From positions 1 through 26,780 of the IMG/VR virus record IMGVR_UViG_3300028653_000049: a DNA stretch of 26,780 bases; one strand, written 5' to 3'. Positions 7,633 through 25,096 of this stretch are shown one piece after another. Each line of letters starts with the position of its first letter. The first letter of the stretch is position 1. This stretch comes from a virus. Under the pieces are notes generated by a model that searched no databases, was not told where the DNA came from, and saw nothing but the letters and a program-made list of their open reading frames with translations. The position numbers and the translations under genes were made by a program.

Positions 7633-8415
7633 TTATTTTTCATTCTCATAAGGCTTGAACACAATTGTGATATATTCTATTAAATGTGGTACAGTATCCA
7701 AATATTTCATTTCAGAAATGTCGTACCAACCATATTTTGTATTTTCATCATTTAATTTAACATCTGTTTCTTCGCCAGCATATCTACAAGCAAATATATG
7801 TTCAATACTATCTGTATGTCTTTGAATGGTAAATGTTTTTATGAATTTTTTAATTTCTAATTTAGTTTCTTCTTTAATTTCTCTCTCAATTGCTTGTTGA
7901 GGTGTTTCATCTTTATTAATTTCACCGCCAACCAATGACCACTTATTTGGCATCCAAATTTTACTATCATCTGCTCTTTTAAGTAAAAGAATTTTATTAT
8001 CATTATTAACAATTACTGCTACAGCATTTTTTTTTAATTCTTTCTTCTCTTCATTTAGTCTTGGTGTTTGATATGGTTTTAATTCTGAATTAGGATTAGT
8101 TGCCACAATTTGTTTAACCCTTTTTGACCTTTCTACACCAGCACGATCTTGATTTAATGTTTTTTCAATAAATGCTTTCATTAAATCACCACCAGCAAGA
8201 GCATATTGATTTTTATCATCTGTTTGTGGATTAAAATAATCAAAATAATTCTTTAATCTCTTTAATGCTTGATATGTCAAAACACCGTTTTTAAGTATGA
8301 AGTTTGCCCTTTTTAGACCATTACTGTTTGAAGTTGATGCTTTTGCCACTTCAATACTTTTAAGTATGTTTTGTGGGATATAATATGTTTTATTTAATAA
8401 TTCTTGATTTGCCAT
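7633..8415 (-). CDS. Nudix hydrolase with an extra N-terminal phage domain
   Basis: This is a 260-aa protein. Residues about 132-255 form a Nudix domain, a fold that cleaves nucleoside-diphosphate-linked substrates. The Nudix box spans G164-x5-E170-x7-R178-E179-I-K-E182-E183, with Lys at 185 where Gly is usual. The metal-binding Glu residues are kept, so activity is plausible; the substrate is unknown. Residues 1-120 are an added helical, polar region (MANQELLNKTYYIPQNILKS, then ALAGGDLMKAFIEK) absent from ordinary Nudix proteins and possibly a virion or partner-binding part. The start codon overlaps the stop of the upstream homing endonuclease as TAATG, implying translational coupling. Before that insertion it was probably coupled directly to the 211-aa gene. 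Confidence 0.9.
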   Translation of the reverse strand: MANQELLNKTYYIPQNILKSIEVAKASTSNSNGLKRANFILKNGVLTYQALKRLKNYFDYFNPQTDDKNQYALAGGDLMKAFIEKTLNQDRAGVERSKRVKQIVATNPNSELKPYQTPRLNEEKKELKKNAVAVIVNNDNKILLLKRADDSKIWMPNKWSLVGGEINKDETPQQAIEREIKEETKLEIKKFIKTFTIQRHTDSIEHIFACRYAGEETDVKLNDENTKYGWYDISEMKYLDTVPHLIEYITIVFKPYENEK

Positions 8416-9587
8416 TATGCCATTATATTAATTGTAGATTTATTTTGTATTTTTATTATATCATTAATTTTCTCACAAATAATATTAATTTGATTGTCAA
8501 CATCTTTTAAAAATTCTTTTTCTTTAATACGTATTATATGACAATTATGTTTTTTCCTTAAAAAATTTTCTCTATTTAAGTCACGTTCTCTTTCTTTTGT
8601 TTTATTGTGGTTAATTTCATCCCATTCGATACATATATTATATTTTTCAATATATCCATCAACCCAATATCTTACGAATTTCTTTTCACCACCATTTAAT
8701 GCATGCTGAATTTTAATTCCCAATTTTTCTGAAATCATATCTAAGTAAATTATCGAATTTGCATTATATGATGGAACACGTTTTTTCCAAATCTCACCAT
8801 ATCTTTCAATAGTGGTATTCATTATTTTTTCACTAATTTCTTTAACTTGTGATGGATGTTCCACACCATATTTTTTTAAAAAAGTTTCTTTCATTTTTTC
8901 TTTAATTTCTAATAAAGAATTGGGGTTTTCAACTCCATATCTTTCTAAACATGTTTGTTTTCTTTTTTTAATGACATCTTCATTTAATGAACAATTTTCA
9001 ACACCATACTTAAGTAAATTAGTTTTTTTTGTTTTTTCTTTAGTGTCGGATGATTGTAAGTTATATTCAACGCCAAATTTTTTTAAACATGTTTGTTTTT
9101 TCTTTTCTTTAATTATATTGGATTGTGAATTATGTTCACAACCAAATTTTTTTAGCGTTGTTTCTTTTATTTTATTTTTTGTGTCTTCACATAATAAATT
9201 TGTTGTTGTGCCAAATTTTTTTAAACACGTTTGTTTTCTTTTTTCTTTAACTTCAGGTAATTGTGAATGATGTTCAACACCATATCTTTTTAAACATGTT
9301 AGTTTTTTCTTTTTAATTAAATTAACAATATCATTATTTACACATTTTCTTGAACAATATTTTATATATCCCTTACTGAATTTATCATATTTAAGTGTGT
9401 TACCACATATACATTTTGGTAATTCAGTTATATTATTCACATAATTAAATAACATTTGCCCCCAATTAGTAATTTTAAATTTTTCATTAAATTTAATAAT
9501 ATTATTAACCTCATCAGGAAATCTATTTCTAATTTGTGAAATTCCTTTATATTCACCATTAAGATAGTCTAAAAAATCGTTATACAT
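8415..9587 (-). CDS. Homing endonuclease: zinc-ribbon, seven 23-residue repeats, Vsr-like nuclease domain
   Basis: This 390-aa free-standing homing endonuclease is a paralogue of the gene at 16983-18056. The N-terminal part has a likely zinc site (CICG near residue 60, CSRKC about 25 residues on). Residues about 101-262 are seven repeats of exactly 23 residues around KYGVENPSQ and KEKxKQTCLK, a probable modular DNA-binding array. The C-terminal nuclease domain resembles PD-(D/E)XK/Vsr-like enzymes: VDGY with D310, IEWDE with E321 and D323, H327, then an IIRI strand. Its ATG overlaps the stop of the 211-aa gene, and its stop overlaps the Nudix ATG, both as TAATG. It has therefore been inserted into a coupled gene pair without breaking either neighbour. 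Confidence 0.88.
   Translation of the reverse strand: MYNDFLDYLNGEYKGISQIRNRFPDEVNNIIKFNEKFKITNWGQMLFNYVNNITELPKCICGNTLKYDKFSKGYIKYCSRKCVNNDIVNLIKKKKLTCLKRYGVEHHSQLPEVKEKRKQTCLKKFGTTTNLLCEDTKNKIKETTLKKFGCEHNSQSNIIKEKKKQTCLKKFGVEYNLQSSDTKEKTKKTNLLKYGVENCSLNEDVIKKRKQTCLERYGVENPNSLLEIKEKMKETFLKKYGVEHPSQVKEISEKIMNTTIERYGEIWKKRVPSYNANSIIYLDMISEKLGIKIQHALNGGEKKFVRYWVDGYIEKYNICIEWDEINHNKTKERERDLNRENFLRKKHNCHIIRIKEKEFLKDVDNQINIICEKINDIIKIQNKSTINIMA
8802..9287 (-). repeat. Seven tandem 69-bp coding repeats in the homing endonuclease
   Basis: Seven units of 23 codons lie between the first RYGVEHHSQ and the closing RYGEIW. Each carries a (K/R)(Y/F)G start and a KxKxTxL end. Nucleotide identity between units is moderate, so this is an old protein-level array rather than a fresh DNA tandem repeat. 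Confidence 0.8.
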
Positions 9588-13941: not shown

Positions 13942-14754
13942 TTAGTTATGTATTAATTCTTCATTATTATCATTATTAAAATTAAATTCTAATTGAATTG
14001 GTGATAGTTTAGGTTCATCTGATGAATTTAAATATTCGATACCATTGATATTATAAATCTTATATCCATTACATAATAAAACATATGCATTTTGTTTTAT
14101 TAAATTTTTATTATATCTATTAGGATATTTATTTAAACCGTAATAATTACTTGATATAATGTGTTTACATGGCACACATTCACAACAAGGTTCATATTCA
14201 ATTATTTTAGCATCTATTGAACCAATTATTTTTGGCATTTCACAAGAAATAATTAAATCTAAATATTGTTTTGGTAATTCATTAGCAATTTCTTCTTTTT
14301 TTATTTTAACTAGAGGAAATGTTAATGGTTTTATGTTATCAATAATTGAAGAATATGAATTATATATTGCTTGTATCTCAGATAAATAAGAAATTGCATC
14401 ATCATTACTAACATAAGCAATCTGTATTTCATCAAAATTCCTGCATTGTAAATATAATGCACCTAATATCCAAATAGGTAGTTGTTTAAATTTTAATTCA
14501 TCATCATAACATGAATTAATACAAATATTCATTAGATGTTTAATACTTTGTATTTTCAACTCAGATTTATTAAATTCTTTCGAAAATTCTTCAAATAATA
14601 ATTCAACCCTATTTTTTTCAAGAATCGTTTTATTTCTATTGTTCTCAATTTCTACATAAAATGGATATACTTCATTACCATCATTGAGATTTTTCCAAAC
14701 CAAGTATGTTGAATCTAGTCCACCTGAAAAGAAAATAGCTATTTTTTTACCCAT
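13942..14754 (-). CDS. QueC-like ATP-pyrophosphatase family protein (preQ0 synthase-like)
   Basis: This 270-aa protein begins with the PP-loop SGGLDST (residues 10-16) that binds ATP in adenine nucleotide alpha-hydrolases. Cys residues C171, C190, C193 and C196 give a C-x18-C-x2-C-x2-C zinc site like the CxxCxxC of QueC. QueC makes 7-cyano-7-deazaguanine for queuosine, and phage relatives feed DNA modification with 7-deazaguanines. The central part diverges from textbook QueC, and an additional Cys at 191 is present. It overlaps the upstream 123-aa gene by 8 nt and precedes the DNA polymerase by 12 nt, so it is made with the replication proteins. No QueD, QueE or FolE gene lies in the window, so the pathway cannot be confirmed; another PP-loop amidating enzyme is possible. 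Confidence 0.8.
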   Translation of the reverse strand: MGKKIAIFFSGGLDSTYLVWKNLNDGNEVYPFYVEIENNRNKTILEKNRVELLFEEFSKEFNKSELKIQSIKHLMNICINSCYDDELKFKQLPIWILGALYLQCRNFDEIQIAYVSNDDAISYLSEIQAIYNSYSSIIDNIKPLTFPLVKIKKEEIANELPKQYLDLIISCEMPKIIGSIDAKIIEYEPCCECVPCKHIISSNYYGLNKYPNRYNKNLIKQNAYVLLCNGYKIYNINGIEYLNSSDEPKLSPIQLEFNFNNDNNEELIHN

Positions 14755-16956: not shown

Positions 16957-16986
16957 TTAATATTTTAAATTACTATTGTCAATTAA
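16949..16986. repeat. Short direct repeat ATTGTCAATTAA, two copies
   Basis: Identical 12-mers lie at 16949-16960 and 16975-16986. One copy forms the upstream part of the host-type promoter; the other touches the end of the homing endonuclease gene. This could be an operator pair or a remnant of insertion. Confidence 0.5.
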
Positions 16987-18056
16987 ATTACACTGGTTTT
17001 TGTAATACTATCAGAAATAATTGTATTAATTTTATTTAAAATGATATTAATTTGACCATCAATATCATTCATAAATTCGTCTTGATTGATTTTAATATAA
17101 TAACAATTAAAATTTTCTATAATAAATTTTTCTTTAATAATATCTTTTTCTTTAAATTTTTTACAATTATGAAATTTTTCATTCCATTCAATACAAATAT
17201 TATATTTTTCAATGAAACCATCAATCCAATATCTTACAAATTTTTTCTCACCACCATTCAATGCATGTTGAATTGGTAAGCCTAATCTTTCCGAAATCAT
17301 ATCTAAATAAATTATTGAATTTGCATTATATGTTGGTACGTGCTTAAGCCAAATTTCACCATATCTTCTTATTATTGTTTCAAGTCCTTTTTTTGCAATT
17401 TCTTTATTTTGTGAAGGACAATTAACACCATATTTTTTTAAATTTGTTTGTTTTGCCTTTTCTTTAACTTCTTTATTTTGCATTGGATTTTTAACACCAT
17501 ATTTTCTTAAACAAGTTTTTTCAAGTTTATTTCTAATTTCTTTATTTTGCATTGGATTTTCAACACCATATTTTTTTAAATTTGTTTGTTTTGTTTTTTC
17601 TTTAATTTCTTTATTTTGTGTTGGATTTTCAACGCCATAATGTTTTAAAGATGTTATTTTCTTTTGTTCTTTAACTATTTTACTCTGAGATGGAAACCTA
17701 ACACCATATTTTTTTAAACAGGTTTTTTCAAATTTATTTCTAATTTCTTTATTTTGTGATGGATTTTCAACACCATATTTTTTTATGTTAGTTGCAATAT
17801 ATTTATTTTTGGAACAATTACGAGAACAAGCATAATAATTACAATTATTGATACTTTTAATATATGAATAATATACTATATAATTTTCCTTTCCACAAAT
17901 ATCACATTTAACATGAATTTTTGTGTGACTTGTCTTTATTAAATCATCAATTTTAATGAAAAAACTATCACCAAATTTAGTAAAAATATATTTATTTATG
18001 TAGTATTTTTTATTATTATAATTCCAAATTATTTCAACTTTTTTATCTAAAATCAT
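16983..18056 (-). CDS. Homing endonuclease, paralogue with six 23-residue repeats and Vsr-like nuclease domain
   Basis: This 357-aa protein is a close paralogue of the gene at 8415-9587. The N-terminal part has a zinc-like CDIC and a CSRNC motif. Residues about 93-231 hold six 23-residue repeats (KYGVENPSQNKEIRNK type). The C-terminal nuclease domain (WIDGF with D279, IEWNE with E290, H296) is nearly identical to its paralogue over ANSIIYLDMISE and GGEKKFVRYW; Asn292 replaces the paralogue's Asp323. The last residues, IISDSITKTSVI, duplicate the end of the upstream 141-aa structural-type protein, and the DNA repeats there as well. This suggests insertion near the 3' end of that gene with its tail rebuilt. 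It lies 13 nt downstream of that gene. Confidence 0.87.
   Translation of the reverse strand: MILDKKVEIIWNYNNKKYYINKYIFTKFGDSFFIKIDDLIKTSHTKIHVKCDICGKENYIVYYSYIKSINNCNYYACSRNCSKNKYIATNIKKYGVENPSQNKEIRNKFEKTCLKKYGVRFPSQSKIVKEQKKITSLKHYGVENPTQNKEIKEKTKQTNLKKYGVENPMQNKEIRNKLEKTCLRKYGVKNPMQNKEVKEKAKQTNLKKYGVNCPSQNKEIAKKGLETIIRRYGEIWLKHVPTYNANSIIYLDMISERLGLPIQHALNGGEKKFVRYWIDGFIEKYNICIEWNEKFHNCKKFKEKDIIKEKFIIENFNCYYIKINQDEFMNDIDGQINIILNKINTIISDSITKTSVI
17002..17022. repeat. Direct repeat copy A (in the homing endonuclease 3' end)
   Basis: A 21-nt block is identical to 18089-18109, within an imperfect match of about 49 nt. It encodes the ISDSIT part of the homing endonuclease C-terminus in the same frame as copy B. 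Confidence 0.8.
17364..17780 (-). repeat. Six tandem 69-bp coding repeats in the second homing endonuclease
   Basis: Six units of 23 codons start with KYGV and end with KTCLK or QTNLK; a closing RYGEIW follows. Alternating unit types (RNKxEKTCL versus KEKxKQTNL) suggest past duplication of unit pairs. Confidence 0.8.
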
Positions 18057-18069
18057 TTAATGAAAAATA

Positions 18070-18495
18070 TTAAATTATTGTTGTTTTAGTAATACTATCA
18101 GAAATAATTATATTAATTTGCCCATTAACTGGAAATTTTATCTTTCCGCAGCCTCCCTCATCTCCAGATGAAATAAAATCTACAACAAACTCTCCATAGA
18201 ATCTACCAACTTTTCTAGTATCTTTTAATCTGAATTTATATGTTAATGTATATTGAGCTTCACTTGGAAAATTAGATTTATCATTATTGATAACTAAATT
18301 TGCAGCTACATTAGCTATACGATATAATCCTGTATCTGAATCAGTCATAGAAAAAGTCACAGCTACGTTTTCTAACATATCTGGAGTAATACCATATTGC
18401 TCCAATGTATGTTGAGTTAATGGATATTTTAATTCAGGTAATGTACTATCTTTCTTAATAAAGAAGTTACTAATATCGAACGTTGAATAGTTCAT
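18070..18495 (-). CDS. Putative phage structural protein (baseplate/fibre-associated-like)
   Basis: This is a 141-aa protein with beta-rich sequence. An opening FFIKKDSTLPELKYPLTQ is followed by VAVTFSMTDSDTGLYRIANV, then a YTLTYKFRLKDTRKVGRFYG strand pair ending EFVVDF. The pattern resembles N-terminal domains of baseplate upper or fibre-attachment proteins (linking DT and GxY turns), but the match is weak. The ATG overlaps the stop of the holin-like gene as TAATG. Its last residues (GQINIIISDSITKT) are duplicated in the downstream homing endonuclease, so the present C-terminus may have been rebuilt by a homing event. Confidence 0.75.
   Translation of the reverse strand: MNYSTFDISNFFIKKDSTLPELKYPLTQHTLEQYGITPDMLENVAVTFSMTDSDTGLYRIANVAANLVINNDKSNFPSEAQYTLTYKFRLKDTRKVGRFYGEFVVDFISSGDEGGCGKIKFPVNGQINIIISDSITKTTII
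18089..18109. repeat. Direct repeat copy B (in the 141-aa gene 3' end)
   Basis: This is the partner of 17002-17022, identical over 21 nt. The two copies bracket nearly all of the homing endonuclease gene, as expected for an insertion that restored the 3' end of its target gene. Confidence 0.8.
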
Positions 18496-18752
18496 TATAA
18501 TACTTGTTTATTAGATTCAGTATTGACGTTATCTACTGGTTTAGTAATTTCTCCTGTTTTTTCCATTGGTTTTTGTACAAGTTTACCACCAATTGCAATA
18601 CTTACAAGAAATACTACAATATCCATTGGAATACTAGTTCCTTTAATGGTATTATTTATAATAATAAATCCTGCAATTAATAATAAGTATGTTCCTGCTA
18701 ACCTAATCCAAGACCTTTGTCCCGGAGTTTCTTCAAAAAATCCTGTTTTCAT
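18495..18752 (-). CDS. Holin-like small membrane protein
   Basis: This is an 85-aa protein. Two hydrophobic helices (about residues 19-35, LAGTYLLLIAGFIIIN, and about 44-59, DIVVFLVSIAIGGKL) are joined by a short polar loop and followed by a charged tail. The N-terminal PGQRSWIRLAG and the GGKLVQK after the second helix resemble small phage holins. A holin would permeabilise the inner membrane for lysis. No endolysin is seen nearby, so the role is inferred. It starts its unit with a TATTTATA motif 16 nt upstream, and its stop overlaps the next start (TAATG). Confidence 0.65.
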   Translation of the reverse strand: MKTGFFEETPGQRSWIRLAGTYLLLIAGFIIINNTIKGTSIPMDIVVFLVSIAIGGKLVQKPMEKTGEITKPVDNVNTESNKQVL

Positions 18753-18850: not shown

Positions 18851-19360
18851 TTATTTTATATAAATATAAACCCTTCCAGTTCCATCAGTTGCTGCTTGTG
18901 TCCCATAATACATAACTAATTTCCCATTATCTAATTGCATCATTGATGGTCTATATACCCCAGACCACGGATAATCCCCACTTATTACTGTAGGCGTATT
19001 ATTGGGAACTGTAAAATTAATTCCATCAGTGCCATATGCCATCCATATCCCAATCGGATTAGGAGCAGTAATTAACTGTAACCAATACTTGCCCTGATAT
19101 AAAAAAATATCAATATGCCAAGGCTTTCCAGTTAATCCCCCCACTACAATTGTTTCTTCATTTGTAAACGTTCCTTCCAACGAAGTGCATCGAGAACGTC
19201 TGATTTCAAAATTTGGGTCGGTTCCTACGACATAATAAATATAATAGTAATTATCTATTTTTATTACTGCTGGCGAACGAGGGAATAAAGGATATGATGG
19301 TAATTGTCTATCATATCGTTCAGTCCATGTAATACCGTCAGTTGACTTTAAAGAAACCAT
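18851..19360 (-). CDS. Beta-propeller glycosidase-like protein, C-terminal fragment (frameshifted)
   Basis: This 169-aa frame has propeller-like repeats such as STDGITWTER, then FPRSPAVIKIDNYYYIYYV, then KPWHIDIFLYQGKYWL, and finally VYRPSMMQLDNGKLVMYY. They resemble the blades of GH43/GH32-type sugar hydrolases found in tail-associated enzymes. The frame is open upstream of its first ATG (GLFFPIYDLSNNGIMV), and that extension joins the frame of the 84-aa piece at 19375-19629 through a -1 shift near 19392-19396. The two pieces are most simply one gene split by a one-base indel, or by programmed frameshifting. It is the last gene of the tail cassette. The exact glycosidase family is unsure. 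Confidence 0.7.
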   Translation of the reverse strand: MVSLKSTDGITWTERYDRQLPSYPLFPRSPAVIKIDNYYYIYYVVGTDPNFEIRRSRCTSLEGTFTNEETIVVGGLTGKPWHIDIFLYQGKYWLQLITAPNPIGIWMAYGTDGINFTVPNNTPTVISGDYPWSGVYRPSMMQLDNGKLVMYYGTQAATDGTGRVYIYIK

Positions 19361-19374
19361 TATCCCATTATTAC

Positions 19375-19629
19375 TTAAGTCATAGATGGGGAAAAACAGC
19401 CTAGTTTAATATCTCCAAACAAATGATCTTTTAAATATCTACGGCCTAAAATTGATTGTTTAAAATAGTTAATAGCATCAATCAAACTTTTCTCTGCCGT
19501 GAATACACAGGCCGAATGATTAGGAATTGCATCAAACGGTATTTCAGGATATTCTATTTCTTCACCCCTGCGGATCATCCAGTCTAAAAGTGTTTTCCCT
19601 ACTGGATTTATTGTATCTCCTGCTTTCAT
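19375..19629 (-). CDS. N-terminal fragment of the glycosidase-like protein (frameshifted)
   Basis: This 84-aa frame (MKAGDTINPVGKTLLDWMIR, then IPNHSACVFTAEKSLIDAIN) runs to DIKLG before ending in the out-of-frame CFSPSMT. Inserting one T in the run at 19392-19396 would read on as FFPIYDLSNNG and join the 169-aa frame. Together they would give a protein of about 259 aa. The start lies 10 nt after the restored stop of the depolymerase gene, consistent with operon spacing. The N-terminal part itself is not recognised. Confidence 0.65.
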   Translation of the reverse strand: MKAGDTINPVGKTLLDWMIRRGEEIEYPEIPFDAIPNHSACVFTAEKSLIDAINYFKQSILGRRYLKDHLFGDIKLGCFSPSMT

Positions 19630-19639
19630 ATATTTTTAT

Positions 19640-19898
19640 TTAAGGATAAGTTGTACCATTTACTGTAAAATTTGTTATTGTTTTCCCACCAACCGTACTC
19701 ACTATTGTTTTTCCTGTCGAGTTAGTGAAGTTTGTTATTGCAACATTTGAACAACTTGATGAAACAAGGATCGAACTTGTACCTATTACTTCGGCAGTAT
19801 GTGTCCCTGTATCAAATGAAATATTGGCTAAATCTGCGGCACTTGGTGGAGTTGTCGGATAATAGTCTTGCCCAAAAAAGCATATAATAATACTTACT
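19640..19898 (-). pseudogene. Out-of-frame C-terminal remainder of the depolymerase gene
   Basis: Directly after the T run at 19901-19905, a second frame continues with good coding sense: PVSIIICFFGQDYYPTTPP, then ISFDTGTHTAEVIGTSSILV, ending NFTVNGTTYP with TAA at 19640-19642. It is the natural C-terminus of the upstream beta-helix protein, reached by removing one T (or a +1 shift). It holds beta-helix-like short strands. Confidence 0.7.
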
Positions 19899-21380
19899 GG
19901 AAAAACAGGTTGTGTTTGATCCTGTAATATGTCTTATATATCCACCATCACCGGTAAGAATTCTGAAAAAACTAACCCCATCATATGTCGCATAAATATT
20001 TGTAAATGTAATAGTGTCTGTACCACCACCCATATATGACCTATTAACAAAACTGCCAGCGTTAAAGTCAACTAAAGCGATTCCATCATCACCAGTATTT
20101 AATTCTATATTTTTAAATGTAATTTTACGACTACCGTGACCAATGTCTATTCCATCCTGATTTGCTATTCCTGTTTTATAAGCAACTGAGCAATCATGAA
20201 TATTTCCATTACGACTTCTCTGAATTAATAAACACCAAGCTTCATAATCTTTTAAGAATATACCTGACAATTCAAAATTTGTTACATTAAGAAAAAAACC
20301 GCTTAGGTAATGCCATGATCTCCACCCCGAAGTGCCATATGTAGTACGTCCAGTACCATCATTATTATTTTTACAATTTTGCGACAATGTAGTATTGCCT
20401 AATGATATTATTTTTATGTTAGAATTTCCAGTACTGTCTTTGTTCCTGAAAATATTATCATATGTCCCAGCATTTTGAATGATAGTTGCATTATGTATGT
20501 AAACTGTTTTATTTGATGGGATAAGTATAGATGATCCAATTTTAAATTTACCATTTTGAAGTAAAATCGTATCTGCGTTGACCAATGCTGTATTTATACA
20601 AGTTACATTATCTGTAACACTATCCCCAATAGCACCGCACTGAGCTAGATCAACCCATTTATTAGGTAATGACGATGGATTTGGATCAACCGTAGTATAA
20701 TCTAAAGATGTCATCCAAACATCATCTATTGTTATTAATGATCTTACATTTGCACCTCCTGTGTATGTCATTAAGAATTTTTTATTGGTGCCTAAATTAT
20801 ATGTTTGTGTAGTCCCTTTCTGAACCCACGAAGCACCACCCCAAACCCAACAGGAAATATTATTTGAGGCATCTAATTTTATCTTTATTATCGCATTTAA
20901 ATCAGCTATTCCTGTCGCTGTATAACGCGTTGTCCCGCCCTGAACTATTACAAAATCCCATTTCCAATTCGTAAGATCGCGGGTCAAACAGACCCGATTA
21001 TTATTATCAACATAAATTGGACAAATTATTGGACTGACTCCAATCGGGAAATTCATATCAATTGCAAATTTGACTTGTCCTGATGTAAATGTTGCGACTG
21101 AGGCAATATTATCTGCCATAAATGAAGTAGTTCCAACACCTGTAACCATCATCTTTAATACCTGTCCGCCATTTGATATTTTACCGTCTTGGACAAATGT
21201 TACTTTTGTCGGGTCAGGATTTGTAACTGTCCATTTTGCAGCATTAATTGAACTTCCAGAGAAATCGTCATGTAGATATACTGTACCCGAATAAGAGGAA
21301 CTGTTGCCTAAAAAACTAGATAATTGGCACTTCCCTGTTATGCAAGCAAACAATAAAATTGGAATGATGTATTTTTTCAT
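19812..21380 (-). CDS. Secreted-type phage depolymerase: ConA-like plus GH28-like beta-helix domains (frameshifted)
   Basis: This is a 522-aa frame. Residues 1-19 are a signal peptide (MKKYIIPILLFACITGKC). About 34-225 is a ConA/LamG-like jelly roll (DDFSGSSINAAKW). About 240-520 is a right-handed beta-helix of pectin-lyase type. Within it, NQDGIDI (D409) and TGDDGIAL (D431, D432) match the three Asp of GH28 polygalacturonases, so it may cut acidic surface polysaccharide. The frame leaves the true path at the T run 19901-19905 and ends in a nonsense tail (KCRRFSQYFI); the real end is at 19640. The ATG overlaps the upstream gene's stop as ATGA. A signal peptide on a phage tail enzyme is unusual. 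Confidence 0.85.
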   Translation of the reverse strand: MKKYIIPILLFACITGKCQLSSFLGNSSSYSGTVYLHDDFSGSSINAAKWTVTNPDPTKVTFVQDGKISNGGQVLKMMVTGVGTTSFMADNIASVATFTSGQVKFAIDMNFPIGVSPIICPIYVDNNNRVCLTRDLTNWKWDFVIVQGGTTRYTATGIADLNAIIKIKLDASNNISCWVWGGASWVQKGTTQTYNLGTNKKFLMTYTGGANVRSLITIDDVWMTSLDYTTVDPNPSSLPNKWVDLAQCGAIGDSVTDNVTCINTALVNADTILLQNGKFKIGSSILIPSNKTVYIHNATIIQNAGTYDNIFRNKDSTGNSNIKIISLGNTTLSQNCKNNNDGTGRTTYGTSGWRSWHYLSGFFLNVTNFELSGIFLKDYEAWCLLIQRSRNGNIHDCSVAYKTGIANQDGIDIGHGSRKITFKNIELNTGDDGIALVDFNAGSFVNRSYMGGGTDTITFTNIYATYDGVSFFRILTGDGGYIRHITGSNTTCFSSKYYYMLFWARLLSDNSTKCRRFSQYFI

Positions 21381-22027
21381 AAATACCTTTTATAATATGT
21401 TGTGTAGCTAGTCCCGTTATATAAGTACCAAAAAACATAATAGTTTAATGTGTTTAAGGTATGATCAAAAGTGAGCGTCCCCATATTGGTACATGCTGTA
21501 AGGTTGAGATCATGAGTTCCATCCCCAACAAATATTATATAATATTCAGAACCCGAAACTTTTGTTAAGTTTGATAAAACAATTGTCAAAGCAGATGTTA
21601 CACTATAATTATTTGCTATAGTTTTTGAATGATTAAATCTTAATGAATCAAAAACTATATTTGAAACAGGATATGAATAGTTTACTTCTGATAGAAGTGT
21701 ATTTGTAAAATCGTTAGTAGAAAGTCCTTTGCCAGTTACCTTATCTACTTTTGTTGAAAGTAAACTATTAGCATTTTGATAAGTTTCTAATCCTGTTGCA
21801 CTATGAGAGGTATCAGTATTTAATACTGTAATCCTTTCTCTTATTACTTTATTTGTGACAGTATCAATAAATAAAGCCTGTGTTTTAGTTGCTGCAATAG
21901 TAACCGAATCCTTTGGAATCGTTACACTTCCTTTAATATTCAATGTAGCCTGTACCTGTCTTGGAACTTTCTGTCCAAAACAAACACCTGAATAAATAAG
22001 TAGTAATATTATTATAATCTTTCTCAT
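21377..22027 (-). CDS. Tail fibre-like protein with signal peptide
   Basis: This is a 216-aa protein. The N-terminus MRKIIIILLLIYSGVCFGQK is a signal peptide with an FGQ cleavage region typical of Bacteroidetes secreted proteins. The mature part has repeats typical of phage fibres (STKVDKVTGKGLSTNDFTNT, about residues 88-110) and a C-terminal beta-rich region ending WYLYNGTSYTTYYKRYL. It is probably a trimeric fibre or a connector for the neighbouring depolymerases. The gene lies 3 nt after the tailspike gene and overlaps the next start by 4 nt, so all three are co-translated. Confidence 0.78.
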   Translation of the reverse strand: MRKIIIILLLIYSGVCFGQKVPRQVQATLNIKGSVTIPKDSVTIAATKTQALFIDTVTNKVIRERITVLNTDTSHSATGLETYQNANSLLSTKVDKVTGKGLSTNDFTNTLLSEVNYSYPVSNIVFDSLRFNHSKTIANNYSVTSALTIVLSNLTKVSGSEYYIIFVGDGTHDLNLTACTNMGTLTFDHTLNTLNYYVFWYLYNGTSYTTYYKRYL

Positions 22028-22030
22028 ATC

Positions 22031-23752
22031 TTAATAGTTTTGACGTTTAAAATCACAGGTCATTGTTGCTGCTGTTCCTGTATTTGTTGTGGTATAACCT
22101 AATTTCAAAGTGTTAGAAACTCCAGAACGATACACCCCGTTAAATGTCACTCCTGTACTTGCTGACTGGATTAAATCACCGGGATCAATTAGGTATGCTG
22201 TGCCTGTGTTTAATATTTTCATTGAACCATGTGAGTATGTTGTGCCTCTTACTATATTGTAATCAATATCTATTGAACGATTATAAGATAAATCTCCTAT
22301 TGAAATGCTGTCAGTTGCATTGTTTGTTAAGGTAAATGGGATTCTCTGCTGATATTCTGGATAAATATTTGGAATATTTATATAAGTTCCCACTCCCGGA
22401 TTTGATAAATCCTTTGTTAATGATGCAGGATCATAAATAGATGTATATGCTCCTGTAATTGTTTGTGATACCAATTTAATTGGTGAACTTGTACTATAAT
22501 TCCTTAATAAATATTTAGTATTTTTTAAAGAAATATCATTAACTTCAGCATTAATGGTGCCCGAAGACGTTATTTTATTACTAAATGCTATATCACAATT
22601 TTTAAATAAAAAATGAATGCCAGTTGTTTTTGGAACAATCCCCACATCTCCGATGTAATTTATAGCCACATTATAATTTGAAAAAATTAAATCACTCATT
22701 TGACAATAATCCATCCATCGTAACCCAATTGTTTTAGTTGCTGCTTTATTTTTAATTACACCATATGTTATTTCGCAATGTTCTGTTGCAACAATAACTT
22801 CTTGTGTAAGAACATTTAAATAAGTATTTATTTTGCTATTTGCTATTCTAGTATTTAGCATTGACAAATTAAATCCAGTAGTTTGCCTAAAATTTAGATT
22901 ATCTGAACCAAAATATACACCGTCAATATGTTGAGAATTAGGGAACTCAATATTGCAATTGAAAAATGATAAAGAATTAGACTGCTCATAGTTTAATATT
23001 TGGTCAGAAAGTATCGTAATTGTTGTATAATAATCAAAAATATACTTTTGTAAAGTAATATTATAATTTGGTGAAAATATTGTATCACCTACATTCCCTT
23101 CAATTGGGTAGGTTACAGTAGTTGTCGTTCCGAAAAAACAACCTTCTAATATATCAGTTGTATAAGGTGTCCCCGTATATGTAAATGTATTTGACATAAT
23201 TTTTGTCATAGTCAATGGAGTAGCTCTCATATTATAGGTGCCTTTAATTTGAACCCTCGGAGAAGCATACCAAAAATTGGTAAAATTATTTAGTTTTACT
23301 ATTTCTAATTTGTCATTTATGGACATAGTGAATGTACCAGAATCCAATTGTACAGTGACAACCCCATATAGTAAATAAGGATGAATACTTTTTAAAGCCT
23401 TATTGATTGTAGCATATGGATGTGAGGATGTCCCATTTCCTGTAATATCTGATCCCGGAGTTTGTGGATCAGTTGGCATTGAAACATATATGGTTCTTGC
23501 AACCCACTCACTTGCTGTATCAATACCAATTTTATTGCCGTTTTTCATCAAACCTAATTCAGCAGTGACAGTATTTGTCGAAATCATTTTACTACCATCA
23601 GGAAATTTAAGTGTATCTTCAATAGTAATTGTTTTTTTAGTTTGGTCAAGAGCTTTTATACCATCAGTTTCAACTTTCTTAAACTTTTGTCCAAAGACCA
23701 AGACTGGCATCATAAATGCTAATAAAATTAATATTTTTTTCATAATTTTCAC
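22031..23752 (-). CDS. Tailspike-like right-handed beta-helix protein with signal peptide
   Basis: This is a 573-aa protein. Residues 1-22 are a signal peptide (KKILILLAFMMPVLVFGQ). An adaptor segment (KFPDGSKMISTNTVTAELG) follows. From about 85 (DPQTPGSDITGNGTSSHPYA, then TINKALKSI) it shows the typical entry of a pectin-lyase-like beta-helix. Many short strands and Asn ladders run to about 450, and a beta-rich C-terminal domain ends TMTCDFKRQNY. This is the architecture of tailspikes that bind or cut surface glycans. No catalytic site can be named. Its start lies 3 nt after the 108-aa fibre gene. Confidence 0.82.
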   Translation of the reverse strand: MKIMKKILILLAFMMPVLVFGQKFKKVETDGIKALDQTKKTITIEDTLKFPDGSKMISTNTVTAELGLMKNGNKIGIDTASEWVARTIYVSMPTDPQTPGSDITGNGTSSHPYATINKALKSIHPYLLYGVVTVQLDSGTFTMSINDKLEIVKLNNFTNFWYASPRVQIKGTYNMRATPLTMTKIMSNTFTYTGTPYTTDILEGCFFGTTTTVTYPIEGNVGDTIFSPNYNITLQKYIFDYYTTITILSDQILNYEQSNSLSFFNCNIEFPNSQHIDGVYFGSDNLNFRQTTGFNLSMLNTRIANSKINTYLNVLTQEVIVATEHCEITYGVIKNKAATKTIGLRWMDYCQMSDLIFSNYNVAINYIGDVGIVPKTTGIHFLFKNCDIAFSNKITSSGTINAEVNDISLKNTKYLLRNYSTSSPIKLVSQTITGAYTSIYDPASLTKDLSNPGVGTYINIPNIYPEYQQRIPFTLTNNATDSISIGDLSYNRSIDIDYNIVRGTTYSHGSMKILNTGTAYLIDPGDLIQSASTGVTFNGVYRSGVSNTLKLGYTTTNTGTAATMTCDFKRQNY

Positions 23753-23755
23753 AAA

Positions 23756-24082
23756 TTATTTTGAATATACCCTAATTGTTAATAAACCATCTGCTTCTGG
23801 AGTTACTGTTATTCCAGTTAAGTTTTTATTGCTAAAAGCAACTGGAATTATTTGACCATCAGCCCAACTCCAAATATAATCATAATCAGAAACTGTATTT
23901 GGAAAAGAAAAATCAAACCTAGTAGCACCAGTTGTTATTGCTTTAGTAATGGTATAACTATTAATTGTACCTAAATTACCAGTACTTCCAATTTGAGTGT
24001 TACCACTTAATGTTAATGTACTACCTGAAGTTTGTTCAACATTCTGATTAGTTAATTTAATTTTTGTACTTCTTAATGTCAT
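23756..24082 (-). CDS. Small tail fibre-like protein
   Basis: This is a 108-aa protein with no signal peptide, unlike the three genes after it. It opens MTLRSTKIKLTNQNVEQTSG, then STLTLSGNTQIGSTGNLGTI, repeats usual in fibre shafts, followed by a small beta domain (FDFSFPNTVSDYDYIWSWAD). It probably forms a fibre piece or attachment point for the tailspikes. It heads the adsorption cassette. Two TATTTATA motifs lie 13 and 47 nt upstream. Confidence 0.72.
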   Translation of the reverse strand: MTLRSTKIKLTNQNVEQTSGSTLTLSGNTQIGSTGNLGTINSYTITKAITTGATRFDFSFPNTVSDYDYIWSWADGQIIPVAFSNKNLTGITVTPEADGLLTIRVYSK

Positions 24083-24190: not shown

Positions 24191-25096
24191 TTATTTCTGT
24201 TTATTTACTGCTTCAATAATTTGATTTATATCAAATAAATTTACTGTGTCATAAGGAAACTGCTGAATCATTCCCGAAATGTCATCATTCATGTACGAAA
24301 ATTTATTAAAATTATTTATTATGTTTGCATTAGGTAAAATATTAATATGTTCCTCATATCCAAAGACTTGAGGGCTGTTACCTATCCAACAAACAGTGCT
24401 TTGTAAATTTAATGCTGCTGCTGCATGTGCTGCAAAACTATCAATAAATAATCTTTTTGTGCTTAATGGAAACACTGCATATAATTCTCTTAATGGTAAA
24501 TTAAGTGGTTCAACTCCCTGTAAATTTGGTTGATCGGGATTTTTTATGTGAAGAATTCTATATGATTTAGAAAAATAATTTACAAGCTTCTGTGCTATTT
24601 CTATTGGCATATCCCTATACCAAGATTTTTTCGAATACTGTTGACCCCCGCCTCCGTGAGTCTGAAGAAGCATTATGGGACGAGAATCTGGTTTTATTTT
24701 ATCTTTAGCTATTTCGAGTTCTCTTGGATTTAAATATAGTTCTGGTTTATAACCATCATAGGGAACATTAAACATTTTACACCAAGTTTCAGTTAAATGT
24801 TCTTTTCTTAATATATGATTAGTTTCATTATAAGGGTCATGTTTCATTATAATTGTATCATCTTTAATGTAGTCATCCTTAAAATATTGAACTTGACCTT
24901 GTAAATAAAATCTAAATATATTGGGATTATTAAAAAACGAAGCATCCCAGCTTCCTACTACAATAATTTTCCTATTGGGGTATTGTTTTTTTATTGCACG
25001 AATTACAGCAGTTGCTTGGATATTCTTACCGTGGCCCCCAGAAATTTCAAACACAACATAAATATCATTTTCTTTTATTCTATTATCAATTACCAT
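24191..25096 (-). CDS. GT9-like (heptosyltransferase-type) glycosyltransferase
   Basis: This is a 301-aa protein. Its fold order looks like GT-B. An N-terminal ISGGHGKNIQATAVIRAI loop binds the acceptor in GT9 enzymes. A second nucleotide-binding half follows, with RPIMLLQTHGGGG (about 140-155), KRLFIDSFAAHAAAAL (about 223-238) and TVCWIGNSPQVFGY. GT9 enzymes move sugars such as heptose onto lipopolysaccharide. In a phage it could coat virion proteins or modified DNA, or change the host surface to block rivals. The gene lies 14 nt after the GIY-YIG endonuclease and before the fibre cassette, which favours a virion or surface role, though this is inference. Confidence 0.8.
   Translation of the reverse strand: MVIDNRIKENDIYVVFEISGGHGKNIQATAVIRAIKKQYPNRKIIVVGSWDASFFNNPNIFRFYLQGQVQYFKDDYIKDDTIIMKHDPYNETNHILRKEHLTETWCKMFNVPYDGYKPELYLNPRELEIAKDKIKPDSRPIMLLQTHGGGGQQYSKKSWYRDMPIEIAQKLVNYFSKSYRILHIKNPDQPNLQGVEPLNLPLRELYAVFPLSTKRLFIDSFAAHAAAALNLQSTVCWIGNSPQVFGYEEHINILPNANIINNFNKFSYMNDDISGMIQQFPYDTVNLFDINQIIEAVNKQK

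Follow-up and report, generated by a model that had tools for sequence, protein, structure and literature searches.

The variable tail-fibre slot of an uncultured jumbo phage appears to hold a laterally acquired cassette of genes for fibre-, tailspike- and GH28-like proteins that begin with Sec signals of the Bacteroidota type. Expression of the cassette probably coincides with that of the fibre genes, and we infer that the infected cell would export its proteins, with no cytoplasmic assembly into particles. At or beyond the cell surface they could then bind, mask or cut glycans of the envelope or matrix, so that re-adsorption would be limited and the spread of progeny helped. On whether the proteins are exported and act at the surface, by masking or stripping receptors or by clearing matrix, we are evenly divided between belief and doubt. 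Export of the three proteins, taken by itself, appears well supported by sequence, given the Q-rule signals, the Bacteroidota-type host, a second family member with such signals, and a T9SS domain found there.

Signal-bearing genes in a fibre locus

The window, meaning the whole stretch of DNA that was analyzed, is a viral record of 26.8 kb. The gene block under study lies on its minus strand and has the following features:

24191..25096, minus strand: conserved gene adjoining the fibres, with a weak resemblance to LPS heptosyltransferases (TIGR02201, E=0.0029, below cut-off) and copies 47-91% identical in relatives
23756..24082, minus strand: short fibre of 108 aa without signal, directly upstream of the signal-bearing trio
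22031..23743, minus strand: ORF for a tailspike-like (beta-helix/tail-like) protein of 570 aa, signal MKKILILLAFMMPVLVFG followed by Q
21377..22027, minus strand: ORF for a fibre-like protein of 216 aa, signal MRKIIIILLLIYSGVCFG followed by Q, with the fibre motif VTGKGLSTNDFT
19640..21380, minus strand: frameshifted jelly-roll and GH28-like gene, ORF 19812-21380 (522 aa), the other frame running to about 19640
19874..19879, minus strand: T6 run with the frame change in the GH28-like gene (sequencing error, decay or slippage)
18851..19629, minus strand: signal-less gene in two frames (ORFs 19375-19629 and 18851-19360)
18070..18752, minus strand: small membrane protein (putative, holin-like) and conserved 141-aa gene, which delimit the slot on its 3' side across the family

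An earlier note on this DNA had claimed that three consecutive genes carry Sec signals, two of them ending FGQ, and that the fibre just before them has none. Both claims held when a rule set was applied to the proteins: all three signals are present, and the 108-aa fibre lacks one. The first protein starts at the ATG at 23743 and reads MKKILILLAFMMPVLVFG before QKF (the GTG at 23752 is probably not its start), the second starts at 22027 and reads MRKIIIILLLIYSGVCFG before QKV, and the third starts at 21380 and reads MKKYIIPILLFACITGKC before QLS. All three have a positive n-region, a hydrophobic core, a small residue at -1 and Gln at +1, and none of them contains a further stretch hydrophobic enough to form a membrane helix. 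The first two signals end in FG; the third ends in KC, where LFAC also resembles a weak lipobox, and this protein could be a lipoprotein instead of being cleaved as a Sec/SPI substrate.

The signal calls come from a home-made rule set that is crude and is not SignalP; shuffled versions of the three proteins pass it 3.0-4.4% of the time. When it was applied to the fibre loci of relatives of this phage (leaving out one genome, G012, described below), a single ORF passed among 156 of at least 180 aa, and this one looks like an over-extended start. The contrast between the window and these loci thus appears large, despite the crude predictor. Two candidates were discarded: the signal of a 1775-aa ORF in locus L150 probably reflects an over-extended start, with both calls in that locus counted as false, and MGKKIAIFFSGGLDS in a QueC-like gene of the window is a false positive of the predictor. 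The latter gene (13942-14754; phrog_1550, 1.3e-27) adjoins the DNA polymerase gene, a position conserved in the family.

From the 108-aa fibre through the three signal-bearing genes, the gaps are 12, 3 and -4 nt, a spacing from which co-transcription of all four is probable. The third gene had been taken as one ORF reaching 19640; in fact its frame breaks at 19874-19879, and 19640 is reached only in another frame. A second homopolymer frame change, at 19388-19396 (T5C4) in the gene that follows, is suggested by the ORF layout. At both sites consensus error and decay cannot be told apart, and a programmed frameshift at the T6 run, which was also considered, is indistinguishable from either. The following gene (18851..19629) gave a GH43 match in Pfam that is not significant (E=0.065) and has a GC3 of 0.24-0.25, like the adjoining GH28-like gene; it is probably part of the same acquired block as the trio. 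Elsewhere in the window, two genes with repeated KYGVENPSQNKEI-type units (16983-18056 and 8415-9587) look endonuclease-like by eye, and relatives have comparable genes next to the same conserved neighbours.

The fibre slot in the phage family and related genes elsewhere

The polymerase led to 60 loci of relatives and the 141-aa gene to 128, of which 80 were retained; these place the window in a family of jumbo phages with contigs of up to 365 kb. Gln directly after the cleavage site is the Q-rule of Bacteroidetes (PMC5837995), and Shine-Dalgarno motifs are nearly absent from the family (0-1 of 11-19 genes per locus). In this the family resembles the cultured Bacteroidota phages Molly (3/51), phi38:1 (4/47) and FCL-2 (1/42), the count in crAss001 being 9/34; some other phages in the set, by contrast, have them before 7/9 or 11/14 genes. 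The Gln at +1 and the scarcity of these motifs make a Bacteroidota host likely for the window virus.

Among the relatives of the 141-aa gene, 37 fibre loci were distinct, and together these contain 225 ORFs of 90 aa or more. Convincing signals were found in only one of them, L146 of IMGVR_UViG_3300037225_000856 (G012, also L024 and L073), so that a signal-bearing cassette is present in 2 of the 38 family members examined. In G012 the slot is occupied, between signal-less fibres and a small membrane protein, by a run of four genes that all have signals; their products are of 352 aa (LamG), 613 aa, 910 aa (beta-helix) and 89 aa (T9SS sorting domain). BLAST detected no significant similarity between the window proteins and the three long ones of G012. 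That four signal-bearing genes of another make-up stand at the corresponding place argues that the arrangement is real, and signal-bearing cassettes of different kinds apparently entered the slot on two occasions. The free-standing 89-aa ORF (L146:6712-6981) consists of little beyond a Sec signal and a type A T9SS sorting domain, which scores above the Pfam and NCBIfam cut-offs; it may represent part of a gene, or else a small protein that engages the type IX machinery of the host. No such domain was found in the window proteins, the third being scanned only to its frame break. Near the same slot, relatives carry envelope-sugar genes (L046:369-2272, L047:3838-4476, L140:893-2382), namely GT11, UDP-galactopyranose mutase, a sugar transferase and a sulfotransferase with APS kinase, as would suit a locus that modifies the cell surface. 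The N-terminal 32 aa of the 108-aa fibre share up to 66% identity with fibres of relatives that have no signal.

Fibre-like genes that carry signals are also present in unrelated phages. The beta-helix family of G012 is found in other viral contigs in two forms, one starting directly with M[AT]TYYVK and the other with a signal first. Signal-bearing proteins of 457 aa (L104) and, from its ATG, 466 aa (L105) match phrog_9729 tail fiber at 1.4e-10 and 2.1e-6, and two signal-bearing genes lie beside portal and terminase genes in L119. In the cultured Flavobacterium phage FCL-2, gp71 is a signal-bearing protein of 147 aa (phrog_3484 tail fiber, 5.7e-9) that recurs at 99% identity or more, with its signal kept, in 78 closely related records of Flavobacterium phages. 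No such signals were seen in the fibre genes of crAss001 or in the stretches of phi38:1 and phi17:2 that were read. In two further viral contigs (L117:1991-8238 and L120:4243-14943), a beta-helix protein is surrounded by runs of successive genes that carry signals or lipoboxes; strong Shine-Dalgarno motifs in L117 indicate that its host is probably not a member of the Bacteroidota. In Maribacter phage Molly (L127:7301-10401), the annotated tail fiber gp17 is apparently a lipoprotein whose start was annotated too late, and an OmpA-like protein with a Sec signal follows it.

Of known systems, tail fibres and tailspike depolymerases of phages (PHROGs 4577, 32680, 4775 and 9729) share motifs, gene neighbourhood and perhaps fold type with the window proteins, which differ in their N-terminal Sec signals, for which virion fibres have no need. 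FCL-2 gp71 and its relatives have, like the window proteins, a Sec signal with Gln at +1, together with a domain that matches tail-fibre families; gp71, however, stands alone towards the end of the genome, apart from the structural genes, and is annotated as hypothetical. Phage products that go to the host envelope include the superinfection lipoprotein Llp of T5 and, in Molly, gp17 (a repetitive GADG-type lipoprotein) and the OmpA-like gp18; none of these, however, belongs to a fibre or depolymerase cassette within the fibre operon. The secreted phage endolysin Lys44 of fOg44 has a Sec signal (PMC6116005) and uses the host Sec pathway, as predicted here, but it serves cell-wall lysis and is neither fibre nor tailspike. 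Tailspike or fibre folds used by a cell outside a virion are reported for the secreted tailspike-like enzyme WceF of Pantoea (PMC7949094) and for fibre proteins of Bdellovibrio (PMC10769870); these are encoded by bacteria, whereas the window genes are phage-encoded. The window trio would be a variant of known phage-encoded exported accessory proteins. A search of the open-access literature returned no description of signal-bearing fibre cassettes, and their placement inside a fibre locus is apparently an undescribed arrangement.

Protein families and origin of the cassette

Matches of the three proteins to PHROG tail families are weak and cover short stretches (4.6e-5, 4.5e-4 and 2.0e-4). The 570-aa protein matches phrog_4577 tail (4.6e-5) and has no Pfam match; the 216-aa protein matches phrog_32680 tail fiber (4.5e-4) and, across 33 aa, shares 61% identity with Maribacter phage Molly tail proteins. 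Sequence searches of the PDB gave nothing useful, and AlphaFold without an alignment produced unusable models (pLDDT 33 and 36), that of the 570-aa protein among them. The third protein is the only one with a significant Pfam enzyme match, to GH28 (4.2e-7; 29.8 bits against a cut-off of 22.9), which covers part of the profile (96-179 of 324). Aligned with host GH28 proteins, it keeps their N-x-D-G and DD acidic motifs, and the GHG and RIK motifs are not evident. The earlier suggestion of free secreted depolymerases fits this protein alone; the first two resemble modules of fibres or adhesins, and no enzyme was recognised in them.

The signal-bearing genes have a GC3 of 0.18-0.24 in the window and, in G012, 0.20-0.24 for the three long genes and 0.12 for the 89-aa ORF, against 0.07-0.11 for the resident fibres of both phages, although some other phage genes also lie at about 0.2. 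The raised GC3 suggests that the cassettes came later than the resident fibres, not necessarily recently. No close relative turned up for any of the three proteins in viral contigs or phage records, nor for the first (taken at 573 aa) in 29 family records. In 396 sampled Bacteroidota genomes no close homologue was found, the best matches being partial stretches at 29-39%; a scan of genomes with a GH28 pair confirmed nothing, and two weak matches (L125, L126) were discarded because the chromosomal genes that contain them appear unrelated. For the jelly-roll of the third protein, the best match (29%) is a gene of a prophage-like locus (L121) that lacks a signal and adjoins a long fibre. Its GH28 domain is about 30% identical to a signal-less protein of Flavobacterium phage FL-1 and also matches GH28-like genes in Bacteroidota genomes, 3/4 of them with signals. 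The recent host capture proposed in the earlier note is not supported, since the sampled genomes showed no close host source and the best match of the jelly-roll is a signal-less, prophage-like tail gene. The genome searches covered a sample of the phylum or short patterns, so that a source elsewhere is possible, and both host and phage sources are possible.

The strongest competing account, which we consider unlikely, is that the fibre locus took up genes for secreted proteins by recombination and that these are now undergoing domestication or loss, their signals being vestigial and without a selected role. The distinct GC3 of the cassettes, the frameshifts in the GH28-like gene of the window and in the gene that follows it, and the two forms of the beta-helix family, whose signal-less form starts at the mature N-terminus as signal loss during domestication predicts, all agree with it. 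The signal is intact, however, in 7/7 genes of the two cassettes and retained across the 78 records related to FCL-2, and the sampled genomes offered no close host source.

Where the proteins would act

That the three are virion proteins after all, with a hydrophobic N-terminus anchoring them in the particle or with exported copies joining released virions outside the cell, is in our judgement quite improbable. Their place in a tightly spaced fibre operon, the weak tail-family matches, and the signal-bearing fibre genes close to head genes in L105 would suit such a role. But signal-less fibres stand alongside in both the window phage and G012, all the signals have n-h-c structure and cleavage-type ends rather than those of plain anchors, and family fibres are otherwise devoid of them. 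The earlier expectation that export, as predicted, would keep the three proteins off virions is sound as an argument. Metabolic cargo, that is, host-type polysaccharide-degradation or surface-adhesion genes that benefit the infected host and are unrelated to adsorption, could account for the GH28-like domain and for the LamG, beta-helix and T9SS domains of G012, yet it is very improbable with 2/3 window proteins fibre-like, no transport or catabolic gene beside the trio, and a slot otherwise filled by fibres and envelope-sugar genes.

The reading in which the cassette proteins are exported and act at the surface also has points against it: the third gene and the next are frameshifted, the cassette is found in few family members, no enzyme family was recognised for two of the three proteins, and the GHG and RIK motifs are not evident. 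A broader proposal, tentative and in our view doubtful, is that in some Bacteroidota phages the fibre locus makes two classes of receptor-binding protein, a signal-less one for the virion and a Sec-exported one (possibly T9SS-linked in one relative) that coats or strips the surface of the infected cell, masking or destroying receptors in a manner comparable to influenza neuraminidase. Should the predicted export prove real, to class all fibre-like phage proteins as components of the virion would be wrong for a recurrent class, the prediction of host range from fibres would be affected, and there would be a testable way for phages to remodel the infected cell's surface. FCL-2 gp71 brings this question within reach of a cultured phage.
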